A stretch of DNA of 50,059 nucleotides from assembly GCF_002160065.1 (NCBI RefSeq), contig NZ_NFJW01000015.1, positions 1 through 50,059 of the forward strand, written 5' to 3'. Both the position numbers and the translations under genes were made by a program. The notes under the pieces were generated by a model. The model ran no database searches. It was not told the DNA's origin and was given only the letters and a program-made list of their open reading frames with translations. The stretch comes from Collinsella sp. An2. Its GTDB lineage: Bacteria > Actinomycetota > Coriobacteriia > Coriobacteriales > Coriobacteriaceae. Below, piece after piece: positions 755 to 33,505 of the stretch; within the stretch, counting starts at the first letter, position 1, and each line of letters starts with the position of its first letter.

Positions 755-2188
755 CTAAATCGCGCCCTCCGGCCACACCTGCACCGGGAAGGTCACCGTG
801 ATGCACGTGCCCTGGCCCAGCTCGCTTGCCAGATCGATGCTCGCCCCATGGAACGACGCGGCGTGCTTTACGATCGCAAGGCCCAGCCCGGTGCCTCCGC
901 GCGCTTTCGACCGGCTCTTGTCCACACGATAGAAGCGCTCGAAGACCTTTTCCTGCTCTTCGGGCGCGATACCAATACCCGTGTCGATCACCTGGATGAA
1001 GGGGCGCTTGCCCTCGTCCATACCGCATGCAAGGGTCACAGTGCCACCCGGAAGGTTGTAGCGGATGGCGTTGCTTGCCAGGTTGTACGCCAGCTCGTCC
1101 AGCAGGCGCGGCACGCCCACCACAAGCGCCGGGTGCAGGTCGCACACAATGCTGACCTCGCCCTTTTTGGCCACCTGCTCCAGCCGCTGCATCACCGAGT
1201 CGAGCATGCGAGGCAGATCGACCGGCTCCATGGAACCCAGGATGCTTGTGGAATCGCTGCTCTCGGAGCGCTCAGCCTCGTCGAGGTTGGAGAGCGTGAG
1301 GATGTCGTTGACGAGCGCGGTCAGGCGGCCGGCCTCCCGATAGATGCGGCTGCCGAAATCGCGCAGGTCTGCGTCATCGGCCACCATGCCGCCGGCGATG
1401 AGCTCAGCGTAACCCGAAATAGTCGTGAGCGGCGTCTTGAGCTCGTGGGTGATGTTGGCGGTGAACTCTCGACGCATGCGGTCGTTGTCGGCAAGAACGC
1501 GCATCTGCCGCTTGAGCTCTTTACGCTGGCTCTCGATGCGCTCCAGCATGGGAACCATCTCGGAATAGGCGTTGTCCATGTTGCGTTTGGGATGGTCCAG
1601 GTCCACGTCGAGCAACGGCGCGATGATGACGCGGGACTCCCGGCGTGCGGCGAAAAACGACACCACGAGCACGATGACCGCGATCACGACGAGCGGCGCC
1701 ACGAACGATGCGAGAATCGCAAGCAGCCCCTCCTGCGCCTCGGCGAGTCGAATCACCTGGCCGTTCTCAAGCGCGACGGCCTCGTAGAGCATGACCTCGC
1801 CCAGCGTGGAGGACGAGCGTTCCGCAGAGCCGTGGCCGGTGGCACGCGCCTCTTCGACCTCGGGGCGTCCCTCGTGGTTTTCCATCAGGGACTCGGGCTC
1901 TTCGCTGTCGTAGATCACGTCGCCGTCGACATCGATGAGCGTCACGCGCTTCGAGTCGAAGGTCATGCGCTCGAGCATCTCCACGTCGTCATCGGCGCTG
2001 TCGAGGGCCGTGGCGACGATCTCGGCCTCGTCGTAGAGCTCGTTTTTTGTGGAGCGCGCCAGGTTGCCGTGCAAAAACACCGTGCCCGCAATGGCAAAGA
2101 CCGCGATGCCGATGAACGCAACCGAGAACACCGTGCCAAAGACACGGCGGGAAAGCGAATGTTTGGCTGCCAGTGCGCTCACGGTCAT
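755..2188 (-). CDS. Membrane sensor histidine kinase (PhoR-like)
   Basis: Senses a signal at the membrane and phosphorylates the response regulator encoded directly upstream (2188-2868). The 477-residue protein has a first membrane segment around residues 18-40, an extracytoplasmic region to about 155, a second membrane segment around 158-180, a DHp domain with H-box ITHELKTPL (His near 248) and an HATPase domain with the N box (NAIRYN), DTGIGI and GTGLGLAIV. The ATG at 2188 shares one base with the regulator stop (TGATG), so translation is coupled; a GTG one codon upstream is an alternative. Sitting next to pstB, a phosphate-sensing (PhoR) role is likely but inferred. Confidence 0.9.
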   Translation of the reverse strand: MTVSALAAKHSLSRRVFGTVFSVAFIGIAVFAIAGTVFLHGNLARSTKNELYDEAEIVATALDSADDDVEMLERMTFDSKRVTLIDVDGDVIYDSEEPESLMENHEGRPEVEEARATGHGSAERSSSTLGEVMLYEAVALENGQVIRLAEAQEGLLAILASFVAPLVVIAVIVLVVSFFAARRESRVIIAPLLDVDLDHPKRNMDNAYSEMVPMLERIESQRKELKRQMRVLADNDRMRREFTANITHELKTPLTTISGYAELIAGGMVADDADLRDFGSRIYREAGRLTALVNDILTLSNLDEAERSESSDSTSILGSMEPVDLPRMLDSVMQRLEQVAKKGEVSIVCDLHPALVVGVPRLLDELAYNLASNAIRYNLPGGTVTLACGMDEGKRPFIQVIDTGIGIAPEEQEKVFERFYRVDKSRSKARGGTGLGLAIVKHAASFHGASIDLASELGQGTCITVTFPVQVWPEGAI

Positions 2189-2868
2189 CACGCCGAGCGG
2201 TCGGCGAAGCGATAACCCACGCCACGCACCGTCTCAATGCAGGTGGAGCGGTCGCCCAGCTTCTGGCGGAGCGTCTGAACGTGCACGTCGACCGTGCGCG
2301 AGCCGCCGTCAAAGTCCCAGCCCCACACGCTTTGCAGCAAGGCCTCGCGCGTGAACACCACGCCCGGCTTGCGCATGAGGAACTCAAGCAGGTCGAACTC
2401 GCGCAGGGTGAGCTTGACCGGCTGTCCGTCGACCGTCACCTCGCGATGGCTCGGCGACAGCACGATGCCGCTGTTGGAGAGCACGTCGGTTGGCTTCTTG
2501 GTCATGCCGCCGCGGCGCAGCAGCGCGCGGCAGCGGCTTGTGAGTTCCATGAGCGAGAAGGGTTTGGCGAGATAGTCGTCGGCGCCGCCGTCGAGCGCGA
2601 CTACCTTGTCGAGCTCGGTGTCCTTGGCGGTGAGCATCATGATGGGCACGGTCGCGGTCTCCTGGTCGGCGCGCAGGCGGCGCAGGATCTCGAGGCCGTC
2701 CGTGTCGGGCAGCATGATATCCAACAGCACCGCGTCGGGAACCCGTCGGGCAACGGCGGCCTTGAACTCGCTGTCGCATGAGAACCCTTCGGCCTCGATG
2801 CCTTGCTGGTGCAGGGCGTACAGGGTGAGCCCGCGGATGTTGTCATCGTCCTCGACGTAGTAGATCAT
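2188..2868 (-). CDS. OmpR/PhoB-family response regulator
   Basis: DNA-binding partner of the kinase that follows it. It has an N-terminal receiver domain (YYVEDDDNIRGL, phosphoacceptor Asp in LLDIMLPDTDG, conserved Lys in LAKPFS) and a C-terminal winged helix (LTLREFDLLEFL, RTVDVHVQTLRQKLG, TVRGVGYRF). I chose the ATG at 2868 because a GGAG lies 11 bases upstream; a GTG at 2880 would add four residues but sits directly against that GGAG. Its place between pstB and a PhoR-like kinase suggests control of phosphate genes, which is inference. Confidence 0.9.
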   Translation of the reverse strand: MIYYVEDDDNIRGLTLYALHQQGIEAEGFSCDSEFKAAVARRVPDAVLLDIMLPDTDGLEILRRLRADQETATVPIMMLTAKDTELDKVVALDGGADDYLAKPFSLMELTSRCRALLRRGGMTKKPTDVLSNSGIVLSPSHREVTVDGQPVKLTLREFDLLEFLMRKPGVVFTREALLQSVWGWDFDGGSRTVDVHVQTLRQKLGDRSTCIETVRGVGYRFADRSA

Positions 2869-2984
2869 CGAATCTGTCACTCCAAACCACAGAAGTCTCT
2901 ATGGAGGCATTCCATAGCCCATCATACACCGCATGCCCGGACGCCTTCGCGACCCGGGCATGCCGATACCGTATGTTATGCGCC

Positions 2985-3035
2985 CGCAGCACCTCGCGCG
3001 CGGCGCCCGACGATCGAGGGGCAAATCGGGCAGCG
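2985..3035. repeat. Truncated copy of the hairpin repeat (copy A)
   Basis: Bases about 2990-3035 match the right half of the complete element at 3141-3249, including the stretch CGACGATCGAGGGGCAA, but no matching left half precedes it. It therefore looks like a half element left by truncation or recombination. It is the first of three tandem modules spaced about 100 bases apart between pstB and the PhoB-like gene. Confidence 0.6.
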
Positions 3036-3051
3036 GAGGTCCGGGCGCCCC

Positions 3052-3133
3052 GCATGCCGCAGGTTGCCGCGAAAGCCGAGGGCATAGGCCTTTGTGCCAT
3101 GCCTCGAAGGCTTGAGCGGCAAGATGCCGGCCG
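3052..3133. repeat. Hairpin repeat element (copy B)
   Basis: This module has the same plan as 3141-3249 and 11678-11783: a 7-bp stem TTGCCGC/GCGGCAA, the conserved loop GAAAG followed by GAGGGC, an inner small hairpin, and CTTGAG before the right arm. The four inner stem pairs differ from the other copies but remain paired. The outer stem is weaker than in the other copies. Confidence 0.7.
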
Positions 3134-3140
3134 CAGATGC

Positions 3141-3249
3141 CCCCGGGTTTCCCAGGCGCCTGAGGTTGTCCCGAAAGAGGAGGGCGCACGCCTCGCGTGC
3201 GGCGCCCGACGATTGAGGGGCAAGATCGGGCGCCTGGGGAAGCCGGGGG
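3141..3249. repeat. Hairpin repeat element (copy C, complete)
   Basis: The outer arms CCCAGGCGCC (3151-3160) and GGCGCCTGGG (3229-3238) pair perfectly, and the stem continues outward with CCCCGG at 3141. Inside are TTGTCCC/GGGGCAA, a conserved GAAAGAGGAGGG loop strand and the small hairpin GCACGC-CTC-GCGTGC. The element lies between the pstB stop and the regulator promoter region. No U tract follows it on the minus strand, so it is not a standard terminator. Confidence 0.85.
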
Positions 3250-3250
3250 T

Positions 3251-4102
3251 TTAGCCGAAGCGGCCAGTGAGATAATCCGCCGTCCTCTTGTCCTTCGGCG
3301 CGCTGAAGAGCTCCTGGGTGGGAGCATGCTCCACCAGCTCGCCCAGCAGGAAGAACGCCACCGAATCGGAGATGCGCGAGGCCTGCTGCATGTTGTGGGT
3401 CACCACAACGAGGGTGTAGTTTTCCTTGAGCTCCATGGCGAGCTGCTCGACCATAAGGGTGGACACCGGGTCAAGCGCCGAAGTGGGCTCGTCCATAAGC
3501 AGGACCTTCGGCTTCACCGCAATGGCGCGGGCGATGCACATGCGCTGCTGCTGGCCGCCCGAAAGACCCAGGCCGGACTGCTTGAGCTTGTCTTTGACCT
3601 CGTCCCACAGAGCGGCGCGACGAAGCGACTCCTCGACGATGTCGTCAAGCTCGGAGCGGCTCTTGATGCCAAGGCCGCGCGGACCGTAGGCCACGTTGTC
3701 GTAGATGCTCATGGGGAACGGGTTGGGGCGCTGGAACACCATGCCCACCTGCTGGCGCAGGCGCGTGACGTTGTAGTCCTGGTAGATGTCCTCGCCGTCC
3801 AGCGTGATCCTGCCCTCGATGCGGCAGTCTTTCACCATGTCGTTCATGCGGTCGAAGCAGCGCAGCAGCGTAGACTTGCCGCAGCCGGACGGACCGATGA
3901 ACGAGGTGACCTCGCGCTCGCGGATGTCAATGTTGACGTCCTTCAGCGCATGATGGTCGCCGTAGTACAGGTTGAGATGCTCCACCGACAGGCACACCGG
4001 ATGCTCGGCTTGCGTCGCAGCCTGCGGAACGGCCTGGCCCATTTCGGCCGCATGCGCGGCCTCTACCGCGTCCATCCATTCCTTGTTATCTGCTGTAGAC
4101 AA
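3251..4102 (-). CDS. pstB: PstB, phosphate ABC transporter ATPase
   Basis: ATP-binding subunit that powers PstSCA phosphate import at the inner face of the membrane. The 283 residues carry Walker [10 protein letters not shown], the Q-loop region [12 protein letters not shown] typical of PstB, signature LSGGQQQR, Walker [13 protein letters not shown], the His-loop TH and the family C-terminus DYLTGRFG. The start is taken as TTG at 4102 because AGGAGG (4111-4116) lies eight bases upstream; longer starts lack such a site. No pstS, pstC, pstA or phoU is in the window, so its partners must be elsewhere. It lies 113 bases after a VanS-like kinase and before a PhoBR-like pair. Confidence 0.95.
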
Positions 4103-4116
4103 TCTGAGTGCCTCCT

Positions 4117-4167
4117 CGCATGAAACGTCATATAGCCTTGTTGATGGTACGTGGTGCGTTTCATGCG
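4117..4167 (-). promoter_or_regulatory. Inverted repeat in the pstB leader
   Basis: CGCATGAAACG (4117-4127) and CGTTTCATGCG (4157-4167) are a perfect 11-bp inverted repeat separated by 29 bases. In the minus-strand transcript the 3' arm abuts the AGGAGG of pstB. It could be a leader hairpin controlling access to the TTG start, or a dyad operator for a regulator. Confidence 0.6.
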
Positions 4168-4215
4168 GCTGAAAACACATTGTCAGGAGCATGTAAGGTC
4201 AGCCGAGAAGACTCG

Positions 4216-9502: not shown

Positions 9503-10594
9503 TTAGTCGAAGAGTCTCAGGGCGTTTGTCCAGGCAGCACGCGCAACCTCGGCAGGATCCTCGCCGGTGCGGGCAGCGCGGTCGCGCGCGAGGGCGTCTG
9601 CGGTAAACGCGATCATGGCCGGCTCGCATTCCAAGCCACGGATAGGCTCGGGCGCCATGTAAGGGCAGTCGGTCTCGAACAGAATGCGGTCGAGCGGCGT
9701 CGCCGCAAATGCTTCGCGAATATGCTCGTTGCGCTTGAACGTGGCCGCGCCGCCGTAAGCGATGTGGCAGCCCAGCTCCACGAACCGTTCCATGGTGGCG
9801 CGGTCCTCGCCAAAGCAGTGCAACACGCAGCCGGCGCTTGGAATCCCCACGTCCTTCAGCACGCGATAGGCGTCAGCATGGGCCTCGCGAGCCTCGTCGT
9901 CACCATCGTTGCGCAGATGAAGCTCCACGGGAACGTCGCGTTCGACGGCAAGCTCCAGCTGGCGGGCCATACAGGACATCTGCACGTCGTGCGGGGCGGC
10001 CTCTATGTTGTCGACGGCGTCGAAGTGGTAGTCCAGCCCGATCTCTCCCACGCCGACGCAGCGCGGGTCCTCGAGGGCGGCCAGCAGCTTCGCGTGAACC
10101 TCGTCGGTGTAGGACGGCGCACCATACGGATGCACGCCCACCAGGTAGCGCAGCGTATCGACCAGCTCTTCCAGGCCCTCACGGACACCTTCGAGGCGGC
10201 CGGCAGCATCGTGCGGCACGGAGGCGGCAGCGAGCGCGAAGTCGGCGGCGTCGGCCACATCGGCCGGCTCACCTGTCACCGCCTCCTCGGCCAAGAGCGC
10301 CATCGACGGCGCGAGGTCGCGAGCACGATCTTGCCAAGCATCCAGCTGCTGGTGAAACGCCACCGCATCGTCAAAGTCGTCCGACAGAGGGTCAAACAGC
10401 GTCACCAGGCGACGAACGCCGGCGCACCCCGCGCGCACGAGCACCTCGGCGGGCTGAGCATTCCAAAAGCAGGTGAGATGGGCATGGGTATCGAAAAGCG
10501 GCGCCAGCGGCCGGGGAGTCCTGTAGACCCGCGGCTTCTTGCGCTTGGCGGCCTTTACAAACGCGACGCCGGGGACGTTGGTGTACCCAGTCAT
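9503..10594 (-). CDS. TatD-family metal-dependent hydrolase/DNase, extended
   Basis: TIM-barrel metallohydrolase of the TatD family. Motifs visible are FDTHAHL near residue 35, VGVGEIGLDYHFD, PVELHLRN, CVLHCFGED and LFETDCPYMAPEPIRG. At 363 residues it is about 100 longer than usual TatD. The extra length lies in a basic N-terminal tail (KAAKRKKPR) and an Ala/Glu-rich insertion of roughly 70 residues between the first and second barrel strands. The ATG overlaps the rsmA stop by four bases (ATGA), so the two are translationally coupled, an arrangement common in Gram-positive bacteria. Confidence 0.9.
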   Translation of the reverse strand: MTGYTNVPGVAFVKAAKRKKPRVYRTPRPLAPLFDTHAHLTCFWNAQPAEVLVRAGCAGVRRLVTLFDPLSDDFDDAVAFHQQLDAWQDRARDLAPSMALLAEEAVTGEPADVADAADFALAAASVPHDAAGRLEGVREGLEELVDTLRYLVGVHPYGAPSYTDEVHAKLLAALEDPRCVGVGEIGLDYHFDAVDNIEAAPHDVQMSCMARQLELAVERDVPVELHLRNDGDDEAREAHADAYRVLKDVGIPSAGCVLHCFGEDRATMERFVELGCHIAYGGAATFKRNEHIREAFAATPLDRILFETDCPYMAPEPIRGLECEPAMIAFTADALARDRAARTGEDPAEVARAAWTNALRLFD

Positions 10595-11571
10595 CGGCCG
10601 TCCTCCGCGGAGCGAAGACCGCAGGCCGATGCTTGCGCGCTGGGGTCGGTGTCCCCCGCCGGGGTATCGGCCAGGCCCGACGCCGCCTCGTCATAGGCGC
10701 GCGCCAAGCGCACGAAATCGGTCAGCGACAGCGTTTCGGCGCGGGCGCCGGGAGCGATGTTGGCAGCAGCAAACGCTTGGTCGAGCAGCGCCTTGTCAAA
10801 ACCGTTCGACCCCATGGAGTTGCGGATGGTCTTGCGGCGCTGCGCGAAGGCGGCATCCACCACGTGCGTTACCCGCTCCGCGTCGAGCGGCGTGGCGGCA
10901 GCCCCCTCGCCCGGCGCGTTTGTACCGGCGTCTAGCACCTCGCGCCGATCGATGCGCACCACGGCCGAGTCCACATGAGGAGCGGGCATGAAACAGCGCG
11001 GAGGCACCTCGAAGCGCCCCGTCACCGCGCCGTACAGCCCAAGCTTCACCGTGTAGGCGCCATATGCCTTGGTCCCCGGCACCGCGGCGATGCGGTCGGC
11101 AACCTCCTTCTGCACCATGACCACGGCGCGTCGCAGCGAAGGCATGGTCTCGAAGTACTGTAGGATGATCGTCGCGGCAACGTTGTAGGGCAGGTTTGCC
11201 ACCAGAACCGTCGGCTCGCCGCCCGCGACTTCGGCGATCGTTGCGGGCGACACCTTGAGAGCATCGCCCATGATGTAGCGAAAGTTGGGGTGGTCGGCGG
11301 CATGCGCATCGAGCACTGGCTCGAGCGTCGCATCCATCTCGATGGAGACCACGCGCGCCGCCTCCTGCACGAGCGCCAAGGTAAGGGTGCCGATGCCGGG
11401 GCCGACCTCGAGCACGCGCTCCGAGCCCGTGAGCTCTGCAAGCTCGCAGATGTGCTCGATCACGTGGTTGTCGATGAGGAAGTTCTGCCCCAAGCGATGC
11501 TTGGTGGCCAAACCGAACTCATCCAGCAGGTCGCGCGTGGCGGAGAGGTTGGCAAGCGGCGATGTGGTCAA
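10591..11571 (-). CDS. rsmA: 16S rRNA adenine N6,N6-dimethyltransferase RsmA (KsgA)
   Basis: Dimethylates A1518 and A1519 of 16S rRNA late in small-subunit assembly, using S-adenosylmethionine. The 326-residue protein has the N-terminal KHRLGQNFLID signature, the SAM-binding motif VLEVGPGIGTLT, acidic VSIEMD, and the NLPYNVAATII catalytic motif, followed by VMVQKEVADRI. A C-terminal tail of about 45 residues exceeds the usual length. The start is TTG at 11571 with AGGAG five bases upstream. The gene overlaps tatD by four bases and follows metG after a spacer that holds a hairpin repeat. Confidence 0.95.
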   Translation of the reverse strand: MTTSPLANLSATRDLLDEFGLATKHRLGQNFLIDNHVIEHICELAELTGSERVLEVGPGIGTLTLALVQEAARVVSIEMDATLEPVLDAHAADHPNFRYIMGDALKVSPATIAEVAGGEPTVLVANLPYNVAATIILQYFETMPSLRRAVVMVQKEVADRIAAVPGTKAYGAYTVKLGLYGAVTGRFEVPPRCFMPAPHVDSAVVRIDRREVLDAGTNAPGEGAAATPLDAERVTHVVDAAFAQRRKTIRNSMGSNGFDKALLDQAFAAANIAPGARAETLSLTDFVRLARAYDEAASGLADTPAGDTDPSAQASACGLRSAEDGR

Positions 11572-11677: not shown

Positions 11678-11783
11678 CGCGGGTTGCCGTAGCGCCCGAG
11701 ATTGGCCTGAAAGAGGAGGGAGGACGCCTAGTGTGCGCCGACCGACGATTGAAGGCCAAGGTCGGGCGCTACGGTAAGCCGCG
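11678..11783. repeat. Hairpin repeat element (copy D)
   Basis: Two 31-base arms, 11678-11708 and 11753-11783, pair at 27 positions plus one wobble. The loop side carries GAAAGAGGAGGG and GACGCCTAGTGTGC. Over 69 core bases it aligns without gaps to the element at 3141-3249. Five stem positions differ on both strands so that pairing is kept (see findings). It ends one base before the metG stop codon. No U tract follows, so it is not a classical terminator. Confidence 0.88.
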
Positions 11784-11784
11784 C

Positions 11785-13398
11785 CTAGTCGGTCAGGCGC
11801 GGGAAGAGGGGCTCCCCCTTCTCCACCGGCTCACCGCCGGCCAGGCCGCCCCACACGCACGCCGCGGCAAGGTCCGCGGTGGGCTCCACGGGAAGCGAGA
11901 GACGACGACGAACCTCGGCGGAGATGCTCGGCATGAAGGGGTCGTACAGCTCGGAGGCGATGCGAATGACCTCGAGCAGGCTCCAGATCACAAGCGCCAG
12001 CTCGTCGGCCTTCTCGGGATCTTTCGCCAGCGCCCACGGCGCCATATCCTCGATGTAGTGGTTCGCAGCAGACACGATGGAAAGCACCTCGGCCGCCGCT
12101 CCGCCGTAATCCATGGTCTCCATGCAGGCGGCATAGCGGTCGAAGATTCCCTCGCAGGCGTCGCGCAGCGGCGAGGGCTCATCGTAGGCTGTAGGACGGG
12201 CCGGTGCGCAGCCATCGAAGTACTTCATGCTCATGTTGAGCGTGCGGGAAACGAGGTTGCCCCAGCTGTTGGCAAGGTCGGCGTTGTACACCTGGCGCAT
12301 GCGTCCCCAGCTGATGGGCGCATCGGTGCCGTGCACCACGTCGCTCATGAAGTAATAGCGGTAGGCGTCCACACCCAAAAGGTCGATGACCTCCTGGGGC
12401 GCGATGACGTTGCCGCGGCTCTTGCTCATCTTCTCGACCTTGCCGGTCTCTTCGTTGCGGACGGTGAGGAACCCGTGCGCGAAGACCTTCTCGGGCAGCG
12501 GCAGGCCTGCGGCCATGAGCAGCGCCGGCCAGATGACGCAGTGGAAGCGGATGATGTCCTTGCCCACGATGTGGACCTGCGCCGGCCAGCGGCGCTCGTA
12601 GTCGGACTCGTCGTCGGAGCCGTAGCCGAGCGCGGTGATGTAGTTCAGCAGCGCGTCCACCCACACGTAGGCCACGTGATCCTCGTCAAAGGGGAACGGC
12701 ACGCCCCAGTCGAAGGTGGAGCGGCTGATGGAGAGGTCCTTGAGGCCGCCGGACACGAAGGAGACAACCTCGTTTCGGCGCGTTTCGGGCTGGATGAAGT
12801 CGGGATGCGCCTCATAGAAATCAAGCAGCGGCTGCTGGAACTCGGAGAGCTTGAAGAACCAGCTCTCCTCCTGGATGCGCTCGAGCGGACGGTCGCAATC
12901 GGGGCAGAGCGGATGCTCGGGGTCGACCGGGGATTCGCCCGCAGCCTGACGCTCTTCCTCGTGATGGCGTACCTGGGTCTCGGTGAAATAGGTCTCGTCC
13001 GGACGGCAGTACCAACCGTCGTAGGCGCCCTTGTAGATGTAGCCGCGGTCGAGGAGCACCTTGAGGAACTTCTGCACACCGGCGATGTGACGGGGTTGCG
13101 TCGTGCGAATGAAGTCGTCGTTGGAGATGTTGAGAGTACGCCACAGGTCGGCGAAGGCCGGCTCCATGGAGTCGCACCAAGCCTGCGGGGAGTCGAACCC
13201 GTTCTTCTCGGCAGCCTCGGCCACCTTCTCGCCGTGCTCGTCCATGCCGGTGAGGAACTTGACGTCGTACCCGCACGCGCGGCGGAAGCGCGCCTGCACG
13301 TCGGTCATGACGGTGCAGTAGGCGGTGCCCAGGTGGGGCTTCGCGTTCACGTAGTAGATGGGCGTGGTGATGTAATACGAAGGCTTCGTATGCTCCAT
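11785..13398 (-). CDS. metG: Methionyl-tRNA synthetase
   Basis: Class I aminoacyl-tRNA synthetase charging tRNA-Met. Motifs: TTPIYYVNAKPHLGTAY holds the HIGH-equivalent HLGT, a Cys-containing loop CPDCDRP lies in the connective region, and the KMSKS loop is present as EKMSKSRGN. The C-terminal half has the alpha-helical anticodon-binding domain. At about 537 residues it lacks the C-terminal OB-fold dimerisation domain found in longer MetG proteins. I chose ATG at 13398 (MEHTKPSYYITTP), nine bases after AGAGGA; a TTG at 13407 would add three residues. Confidence 0.96.
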   Translation of the reverse strand: MEHTKPSYYITTPIYYVNAKPHLGTAYCTVMTDVQARFRRACGYDVKFLTGMDEHGEKVAEAAEKNGFDSPQAWCDSMEPAFADLWRTLNISNDDFIRTTQPRHIAGVQKFLKVLLDRGYIYKGAYDGWYCRPDETYFTETQVRHHEEERQAAGESPVDPEHPLCPDCDRPLERIQEESWFFKLSEFQQPLLDFYEAHPDFIQPETRRNEVVSFVSGGLKDLSISRSTFDWGVPFPFDEDHVAYVWVDALLNYITALGYGSDDESDYERRWPAQVHIVGKDIIRFHCVIWPALLMAAGLPLPEKVFAHGFLTVRNEETGKVEKMSKSRGNVIAPQEVIDLLGVDAYRYYFMSDVVHGTDAPISWGRMRQVYNADLANSWGNLVSRTLNMSMKYFDGCAPARPTAYDEPSPLRDACEGIFDRYAACMETMDYGGAAAEVLSIVSAANHYIEDMAPWALAKDPEKADELALVIWSLLEVIRIASELYDPFMPSISAEVRRRLSLPVEPTADLAAACVWGGLAGGEPVEKGEPLFPRLTD

Positions 13399-13530
13399 GT
13401 CGTGCAATCCTCTCCCTCATGACGGGCCTTGCGTGCGGTGGGCCTGCGGCCGGCGACGCATATAGAGGACATGATACCGCAGGCGACATGCTGCAGCGAA
13501 GTCGGGAGAACGGGGCGAGGCACAGGGGGG

Positions 13531-27445: not shown

Positions 27446-27562
27446 GCGCCCGCCTTTCTGCTCGACGATCCTTCGCCATGGTACCGCATCGCGCCGCGCA
27501 AACGGCCCGGGGCCACGGCGGACGCCGGCCGAGCCGGCCGCAATGCTCTGAGGGAATCACCG

Positions 27563-27614
27563 ATTAAACCATTTCGCGCCCGGTCCCACCGTGCCGGGCG
27601 CGAAAACCTTTAAT
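27563..27614 (-). terminator. Long hairpin after the HAD phosphatase gene
   Basis: Arms 27563-27583 and 27594-27614 pair over about 20 positions with a ten-base loop; the core is CGCGCCCGG/CCGGGCGCG with A/T pairs outside (ATTAAA/TTTAAT). On the minus strand the A/T arm acts as a loose U-rich tail. It starts at the phosphatase stop and likely ends that transcript before rsgA. Confidence 0.7.
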
Positions 27615-28420
27615 CAGTGTTTCTTAAGCAGCTCTTCGACGGTGCGACCCAGACCGTTCTCGTCGTTCGACCACGCGCACACATGCGCTGCGGCCTTCTT
27701 CACCTCGTCGACGGCGTTTGCCACCGCGTAGCTTTCGGGGACGACGCGCAGCATGTCGATATCGTTATGGCCGTCGCCAAACGCAATGGCGTCGGCGGGC
27801 GTGATGCCAAAGTGCTCGCACATAACCTGTACGCCCTCGGCCTTGGACACCTCACCGCTCATGATCTCGCAGAGAATCGGAGAGGAGCGCACGGCCACCA
27901 GCTCGGGGAACGCATCGGCAACCGTACGCTCGGCCAGCTCAATCTGATCGGGCTCGCCCATCACCAAAAACTTGTGCACGCCGCGGGCGTCGAAGGTCGC
28001 ATCCATGGGCGCGCGCAGGGCCTTGAGCGTCGTGATGCGCTCCTCGTTTTGGATGCGCGGGTCGGTGTCGTCGTCGCACGCCCAGGTGTGATAGCCGTAC
28101 TCCGAGCAGCAGACCTGGGGAAGTTCCGCGTCCAGAAACGCCTTGAGACGGCGCGCCACGGCCATGTCGATGGGACGGCTCAGTAGCTCGCGACCCTGCT
28201 CATCGAGCACATAGGCCCCGCTGTAGCAAACGAGCGGACCGGTAAAGCCCAGCTCGCGCTGAATGGTCGTAAGGCCCTCGGGCATGCGCGCCGACACCAG
28301 CACGAAGGGGATGCCACGCTCCTGCAGCATGCGCACCGCACGGGCAGATTCGGGCACGACACGATGCTCGTGGTCGAGCAGCGTGCCGTCAACATCGGTG
28401 AAAACAATCTTGAATGCCAT
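27614..28420 (-). CDS. HAD-superfamily Cof-type phosphatase
   Basis: A 268-residue haloacid-dehalogenase hydrolase of the Cof/IIB class, dephosphorylating sugar or nucleotide phosphates in the cytosol. Motif I is FTDVDGTLLD, motif II is VSAR in FVLVSARMPEG, motif III is the Lys of EVSKAEGV and motif IV is AFGDGHNDIDML. The cap lies between motifs II and III. I chose ATG at 28420 (MAFKIVFTDVDG); an in-frame ATG seven codons upstream is possible. The substrate is not determined by sequence. Confidence 0.92.
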   Translation of the reverse strand: MAFKIVFTDVDGTLLDHEHRVVPESARAVRMLQERGIPFVLVSARMPEGLTTIQRELGFTGPLVCYSGAYVLDEQGRELLSRPIDMAVARRLKAFLDAELPQVCCSEYGYHTWACDDDTDPRIQNEERITTLKALRAPMDATFDARGVHKFLVMGEPDQIELAERTVADAFPELVAVRSSPILCEIMSGEVSKAEGVQVMCEHFGITPADAIAFGDGHNDIDMLRVVPESYAVANAVDEVKKAAAHVCAWSNDENGLGRTVEELLKKH

Positions 28421-32810: not shown

Positions 32811-33505
32811 GTCGCCTCTCTCAACGTCCTCGCCATTGCGGGGCCGCCCTGCCCGCACCCCGTGGGGCAGCCGAACAATAGATAATATCGTTAACAGTTT
32901 TCATCTTACCCATTCGCGGCCGGTTCGGTAAGCCCCCGCGAGAAGTTGGGGGGTCCTATTCTGTGAACGGTGGGGTAACCGCCACGAACAACCCCCTCTT
33001 GTGGATTCCACGTCACCAAAGCCGAAACCCGTCCGTGTCTAAGCCCGCGACGACCCCCGCGCGCTGTTGCACATGTCCGGCTCCCTCCGAAAACAGGCTA
33101 TCCCCCTCCGAAAACGGCTTTCTTGGGCATGCTGCAGAAACTCGTTTCGTTTTTATGCAGTTAAACTCGAAGTTGGAAAGTACACTTTACTGTACTAAAG
33201 TGTCCAACTGGGATTTTGTTGCCTACATTGCAGTGAAAAACGGGGTCTACTCGGCAACGTAAAATCTAACTGCATAAAACCGAAACGAGTTTTCCGTGCC
33301 GGCACTGTTCGACCCCCAAAACGGGACTTCCAGCGACGCCCGCCGATGCGGACGCCGCACTCGACACGGATGCCGCATCGGACAGCCAGCCAAACCCGCC
33401 CGGTCACAACCGGACACGCCCAGTGAGAAGGACGCGCGGCGATGGACACCCCGCGCGCTAGAAAGGCGTCCCGCTCAGAGAATGCCCAGCGCGAGAGGCG
33501 CCCAA
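32811..33505. other. Non-coding region between MarR gene and ATPase terminator
   Basis: About 700 bases without a credible gene. It holds the MarR promoter (TATTAT box near 32884-32890 on the minus strand), two 12-base direct repeats CCCTCCGAAAAC at 33083 and 33104 (21 bases apart), the inverted-repeat element at 33138-33292, and a GC-rich stretch from 33330 to 33500. Open frames inside the element, such as 32963-33262 on the plus strand, encode low-complexity sequence with no ribosome binding site. Confidence 0.6.
33138..33292. repeat. Palindromic element with 26-bp terminal inverted repeats
   Basis: The arms 33138-33163 and 33267-33292 match at 25 of 26 positions (core AAACTCGTTTCG and TTTTATGCAGTTA). 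Inside lie a second hairpin made of AGTTGG/CCAACT plus ACACTTTA/TAAAGTGT (33171-33209) and a GTTGCC/GGCAAC pair (about 33218-33258). Base composition is clearly more AT-rich than the flanks. The form fits a miniature inverted-repeat element or a cloverleaf RNA. No target duplication is evident. Confidence 0.8.

Follow-up and report, generated by a model that had tools for sequence, protein, structure and literature searches.

The hairpins that stand in tandem behind pstB in Collinsella sp. An2 are copies of one previously unlisted repeat family of ~110 bases, which occurs by the dozen in gut Coriobacteriia. We consider it probable that these are interspersed hairpin repeats of a REP-like, non-autonomous kind, occurring only in the order to which Collinsella belongs. 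Our comparison shows diverged copies that share a common secondary structure with strand-specific G.A and G.T pairs, keep a fixed orientation and dock at stop codons, differ in presence between close genomes, and form head-to-tail arrays. A strand-specific, G.A-stacked hairpin repeat of three families of one order would thereby be added to the REP-like elements, and its hosts are common gut bacteria. We found no earlier description from Collinsella or Eggerthella in the open-access literature.

Copies in the window and in related genomes

The window analyzed here is a stretch of 50,059 nt (contig NZ_NFJW01000015.1, positions 1 to 50,059). The tandem hairpin repeats that an initial annotation had placed in it are present in the sequence with the coordinates and pairings it gave. 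Copy C (3142..3249, + strand) is a full-length type-1 element (cmsearch with the covariance model R1, 114 bits, E 7e-22), in the fold of which modules 2-4 are GA/GA and module 5 is GC/GC; the pstB stop codon is 1 nt from its 3’ end. Copy B (~3041..3148, + strand; R1 66 bits, E 4e-11), which is arranged head-to-tail with copy C, belongs to a type-2 subtype and has the core GAAAGCC-GA-GGGC / GCCTC-GA-AGGCTT-GA in alignment A1. Half element A (2992..3031, + strand) was recognized by BLAST as the 3’ half of a C-type copy, with 93% identity to copy C positions 51-91 (E 9e-10). The array had been described as two full modules and a half; the copies and the half are there, and the description is refined in that B is a subtype and 2985-3035 a C-type 3’ half. 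Copy D (11678..11785, + strand; R1 118.5 bits, E 7e-23) is a second full-length element of type 1, in which none of the five tandem mismatch modules is missing, and adjoins the metG stop codon. The inner stem reads CCGC/GCGG in B, TCCC/GGGG in C and GCCT/AGGC in D with TTG/CAA fixed, and the outer stem CCCAGGCGCC/GGCGCCTGGG in C and CCGTAGCGCC/GGCGCTACGG in D, as annotated.

The host gene of the array is pstB (3251..4192, - strand; TIGR00972, 399.6 bits), followed by a PhoB-like response regulator gene (2188..2880, - strand; TIGR02154, E 3e-63, under the curated cut-off). The host of copy D is metG (11785..13407, - strand; NF008900, 645 bits), followed by rsmA/ksgA (10591..11571, - strand; TIGR00755, 236.6 bits). 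Other inverted repeats in the window lie at 33138-33292 (48-nt arms, 79% complementary, 59-nt spacer, in an AT-richer stretch) and at 27554-27623 (30-nt arms, 83% complementary, 10-nt spacer).

A BLAST search of the own genome with copy C (3141-3249) returned strong matches on many contigs, down to 3e-24 outside the window. From an alignment of 14 own-genome copies (A1), with the structure read from folds, we built R1; searched with it, the 2.54 Mb genome yields 24 copies (E<0.01). Standard pairs fill 91.5% of the cells of A1 and double compensated changes occur in 28 of the 38 pairs, while no shuffle out of 500 attains any of five measures and pairing in slid structures stays at 35-44%. The initial annotation had proposed a covariance-model search for further copies in relatives; many were found, and their stem changes are compensated. 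In 112 distinct copies from many genomes, 94.1% of the cells are paired and 33 of the 38 pairs have double changes (slid controls, 35-44%), this alignment being fitted to R1 and A1, made without the model, being the cleaner covariation test. When copies at orthologous positions were compared (70-98% identity), double changes that kept the pair were more numerous than broken pairs in each of the three stem parts. The covariation is overwhelming, and the similarity of the repeats is far beyond chance.

In a draw of 248 genomes from the class, 83 had R1 matches at E<=1e-5, and every one of these belongs to the same family or order (families f1, f2 and f5). Of 296 genomes drawn from the phylum, 12 were positive, in f1 and f2 only, and no element was found elsewhere in this draw; both scans used stricter filters, with which weak matches are lost. 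Copy number ranges from 0 to 53 per genome in other Coriobacteriaceae, both 53 and 0 occurring within one genus, and the two related families carry fewer copies. The named genomes with matches are Collinsella, Enorma and Coriobacteriaceae records. A collection-wide pattern scan also gave hits in Sphingomonas, Prevotella, Duganella and others; when 80 of its loci were re-searched with the model, all matches at E<=1e-4 fell in Collinsella, Enorma or Coriobacteriaceae, with 13 further loci standing outside this re-search.

The outer arms differ between the copies of A1, and the ends of the element are conserved in subfamilies only, the feet being GTCAGCGAG/CGCAGCGTCGA or CAACGGAGACGG/GATCAGTCAACC. 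GTCAGCGAG and CGCAGCGTCGA bound the element in most of the fetched f2 and f5 copies and in a minority of the f1 copies; the loci were taken mostly from the best-scoring matches, among which diverged copies are under-sampled. In f2 genomes (L330, L331, L333-L338), a second hairpin of the GTTCCGNCG... type adjoins the main element on the host-gene side. It lies between the element and the host stop in most f2 copies bounded by GTCAGCGAG/CGCAGCGTCGA, which suggests that the two hairpins form a composite unit. At L337, the host stop codon seems to fall within the loop of the second hairpin.

Tandem G.A core and the folding strand

GAAAG, which had been taken for a loop, is in the folds one strand of a helix with stacked tandem G.A pairs. 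The core reads 5’ GA-AA-GA-G-GA-GG-GA opposite 3’ GA-CC-GA-C-GA-TT-GA, and the tandem G.A mismatches in it alternate with one or two Watson-Crick pairs. In a set of 144 copies, GA/GA was counted 134 times at module 2, 126 times at module 4 and 104 times at module 3, where another 14 copies have GC/GGC. At module 5, 70 copies have GC/GC and 52 have GA/GA, mixed forms being rare, and at module 1, 78 have GA/GG, 25 GG/GA and 19 GA/GA. The G.A modules are either conserved, in 88-93% of copies for modules 2 and 4, or swapped as units to G-C/C-G. Tandem T.G/G.T wobble is also common. The sequence of the tandem G.A pairs predicts a sheared geometry. The initial annotation had thought of a REP-like family but overlooked the G.A-stacked core, the docking at stop codons and the two further families in which the G.A modules recur.

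On the opposite strand, C.T and A.C mismatches take the place of the G.A and G.T pairs. With RNA parameters, the + strand is the better-folding one in 96.5% of copies, and with DNA parameters in 93%, its fold energy being -71 kcal/mol against -59 kcal/mol for the other strand. We took the + strand as the folding strand because of the G.A modules, the tandem wobble and the fold energy, and the call rests on these since, apart from the fixed tandem wobble, G.T and A.C differ only modestly in number (~200 versus 169 cells). In the REP-like reading that we favor, the + strand would fold as single-stranded DNA, and a putative enzyme would recognize the folded strand and move, or have moved, the element. 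The G.A core may then serve as the recognition platform, with the arms drifting under the constraint of pairing.

Docking at stop codons, turnover and alternative readings

The + strand is antisense to the gene on the element’s 3’ side, and in 102 of 144 copies the 3’ border falls at the stop codon of this neighbor (-15 to +20 nt), the distances peaking at 0 to +3 and at -11 to -13 nt. A stop is equally close to the element’s other end in only 10 of the 144, and several undocked copies stand behind a docked one. For the majority of loci, gene ends were set with a simple caller based on codon usage or with a scan. As a control, four 200-kb stretches held 89 other palindromes, of which 9 have a stop no more than 15 nt away (Fisher p 5e-21, a guide only, as the sets differ in their source genomes and, slightly, in the way of measuring). 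In its distance from the stop, the element agrees with the position of hairpins in REP-type translational control (up to 15 nt).

The hosts in the own genome include metG, nrdJ, pstB, a ROK kinase gene, dnaN, hisF, arcA, gyrB, cysS, leuS, recR, ilvN and ilvC; names other than pstB, metG and their neighbors were read from translated sequences. Recurrent sites lie within likely operons, namely gyrB-gyrA, carA-carB, dnaN-recF, pstB-phoB and pheS-pheT (partners named from sequence), the last of which is occupied in three families. We also noticed that arcA (L060, L211, L094, L089 and L093) and gyrB (L061, L029, L048, L141, L210 and L213), both as read from sequence, carry elements in several species, and that the identity of these copies between species ranges from near-identical to background.

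Transcription of the host would place the complementary hairpin at its stop codon, where, by analogy with E. coli REPs, it may affect ribosome release or the 3’-end stability of the upstream gene’s mRNA. According to PMC12306157, which cites Liang et al. 2015, E. coli REPs less than 16 nt from the stop codon reduce translation and stall ribosomes. The position of the element at stop codons in core operons makes such REP-type translation control testable outside Proteobacteria.

By genome, gyrB is followed by a 12-13 nt spacer to gyrA, by an element right after the stop, or by unrelated hairpin repeats. Among three syntenic genomes of ~95% identity, four sites differ in the presence of the element, and this shows turnover. 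At site 1, where each of the other two has nothing but a different palindrome, the element stands between TAG and the leader of the next gene; at site 3, it alters carA at its C-terminal end. Inspection of the few aligned empty sites by eye revealed no obvious target duplication. Mean identity is 74% at orthologous positions against 63% otherwise, which, together with the occupation of pheS-pheT in three families, suggests old, retained positions and not ongoing mobility. Because some orthologous pairs are nevertheless at random level, inheritance and re-occupation both seem to occur. The many copies, their presence or absence in close genomes, their location at gene 3’ ends and the conserved strand-specific mismatches support the REP-like mobile family raised in the initial annotation and a DNA hairpin under selection. 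Carriage by phages or plasmids was rejected, with no phage match and one 0.9 Mb Collinsella “plasmid” record that is probably chromosomal.

The docking and the sites inside operons, including the pheS-pheT site shared by three families, would also be expected of a cis-acting 3’-UTR or intercistronic mRNA element, which spread once and was kept by selection on the gene-strand hairpin at the stop. Such an element could act through ribosome stalling, translational decoupling, mRNA 3’-end protection or operon polarity, and at -59 kcal/mol the gene-strand hairpin is strong too. However, the conserved mismatches and wobbles favor the opposite strand and would be C.U and A.C mismatches on the mRNA, the same genes lack the element in many relatives, and no function common to the host genes is evident. 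We therefore regard this reading as somewhat unlikely.

We see only a slim chance that the element is instead a discrete non-coding RNA of the + strand, antisense to the 3’ end of the host gene. The structure is indeed conserved on this strand, and G.A and U.G pairs are typical of structured RNA. Yet the unlisted RNA class that had been considered is not favored: the best-folding strand is antisense to the neighbor, no conserved promoter-like block is obvious near the element, an upstream gene able to transcribe the + strand is found for only ~1/3 of copies, neither end is followed by a T-tract, and the copies, up to 53 per genome, have diverged stems. Nor is there an Rfam match. In the comparison with Rfam motifs that had been called for, matches at the gathering score were tRNAs only; the best sub-threshold match had an E of 0.36, and the matches of a permissive search were chance hits.

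Intrinsic terminators of the upstream gene would likewise be GC-rich hairpins right after a stop codon, but a T-run of >=4 follows in only 4% of copies on the gene strand and 2% on the + strand, elements occur inside operons, and both the length and the G.A core would be superfluous for termination, which makes this very improbable. Long palindromes in DNA do undergo correction towards perfect pairing, but it is scarcely plausible that such correction by template switching alone, without selection, produced the compensated changes, as it would erase the tandem G.A mismatches that modules 2 and 4 keep and that recur in two further families.

Relation to REPs, RAYTs and other known classes

The element resembles E. 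coli REPs and BIMEs in that it comprises interspersed extragenic palindromes at gene 3’ ends, with variable copy number, compensated stem changes and a share of copies close to stop codons. It differs in its ~110-nt length, in its tandem G.A core and in that none was found near RAYTs. REPs are GTAG-tagged and 20-40 bp long, and cognate REPs stand on the flanks of RAYT genes (PMC2817692, PMC3733652); neither the length nor the subfamily feet of the element fit such a palindrome. A BIME requires alternating units, whereas neighboring elements are head-to-tail in 27 pairs and opposed in 1. CGTC REPs, with 8-9 bp stems, a CGTC tag and a CCA tail (PMC3733652), are palindromic and have no dedicated transposase found, as in our case, but do not fit in sequence, structure or size. 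A MITE was rejected as well, since the drifting outer arms are at odds with terminal inverted repeats of a fixed kind and the few aligned sites gave no obvious target duplication. By analogy, the element resembles integron attC sites, which are single-strand hairpins with drifting arms that lie adjacent to stop codons. In contrast to cassettes, the hosts of the element are housekeeping genes in operons, and on inspection its feet did not match attC core sites.

We tentatively consider it possible, beyond the REP-like reading, that this is a distinct miniature element, whose single strand is held by stacked sheared G.A pairs and served by a putative Coriobacteriia hairpin enzyme, which is integrated or retained in dependence on stop codons, and which has been reused as a regulator in core operons (gyrB-gyrA, pheS-pheT). 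The putative enzyme that would mobilize the element is a concrete target.

RAYTs were rejected as the mobilizer, since they are flanked mostly by other repeats and R1 had no match at E<=1 in 20 stretches (mostly ~3 kb) around Y1_Tnp matches from 16 genomes, one stretch (L255) being shortened by its contig end; in L247, L251 and L255, the RAYT frame was missed by the ORF scan. Elements occur in 26 of 28 RAYT-bearing and 4 of 9 RAYT-free genomes of the family (p 0.005, phylogeny ignored), the RAYT-free set including a genome whose sole match is IS200-like, and elements are also present in four genomes that have no PF01797 match. Among 17 RAYTs examined with their flanks, most share repeats on both sides, mainly GGGGAC palindromes unrelated in sequence to the element, and L241 and L249 had no shared flanking repeats. 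These cognate repeats of the Collinsella RAYTs occur in the same genomes as the element, sometimes near the same stop codons, and flank the RAYT genes; the GGGGAC RAYT-repeat system is separate from the G.A-core element. In L236, L237, L238, L245 and L246, which come from genomes of the Collinsella family, RAYT-like Y1 transposase genes (~250-300 aa) are flanked by GGGGAC palindromes of their own, both direct and inverted.
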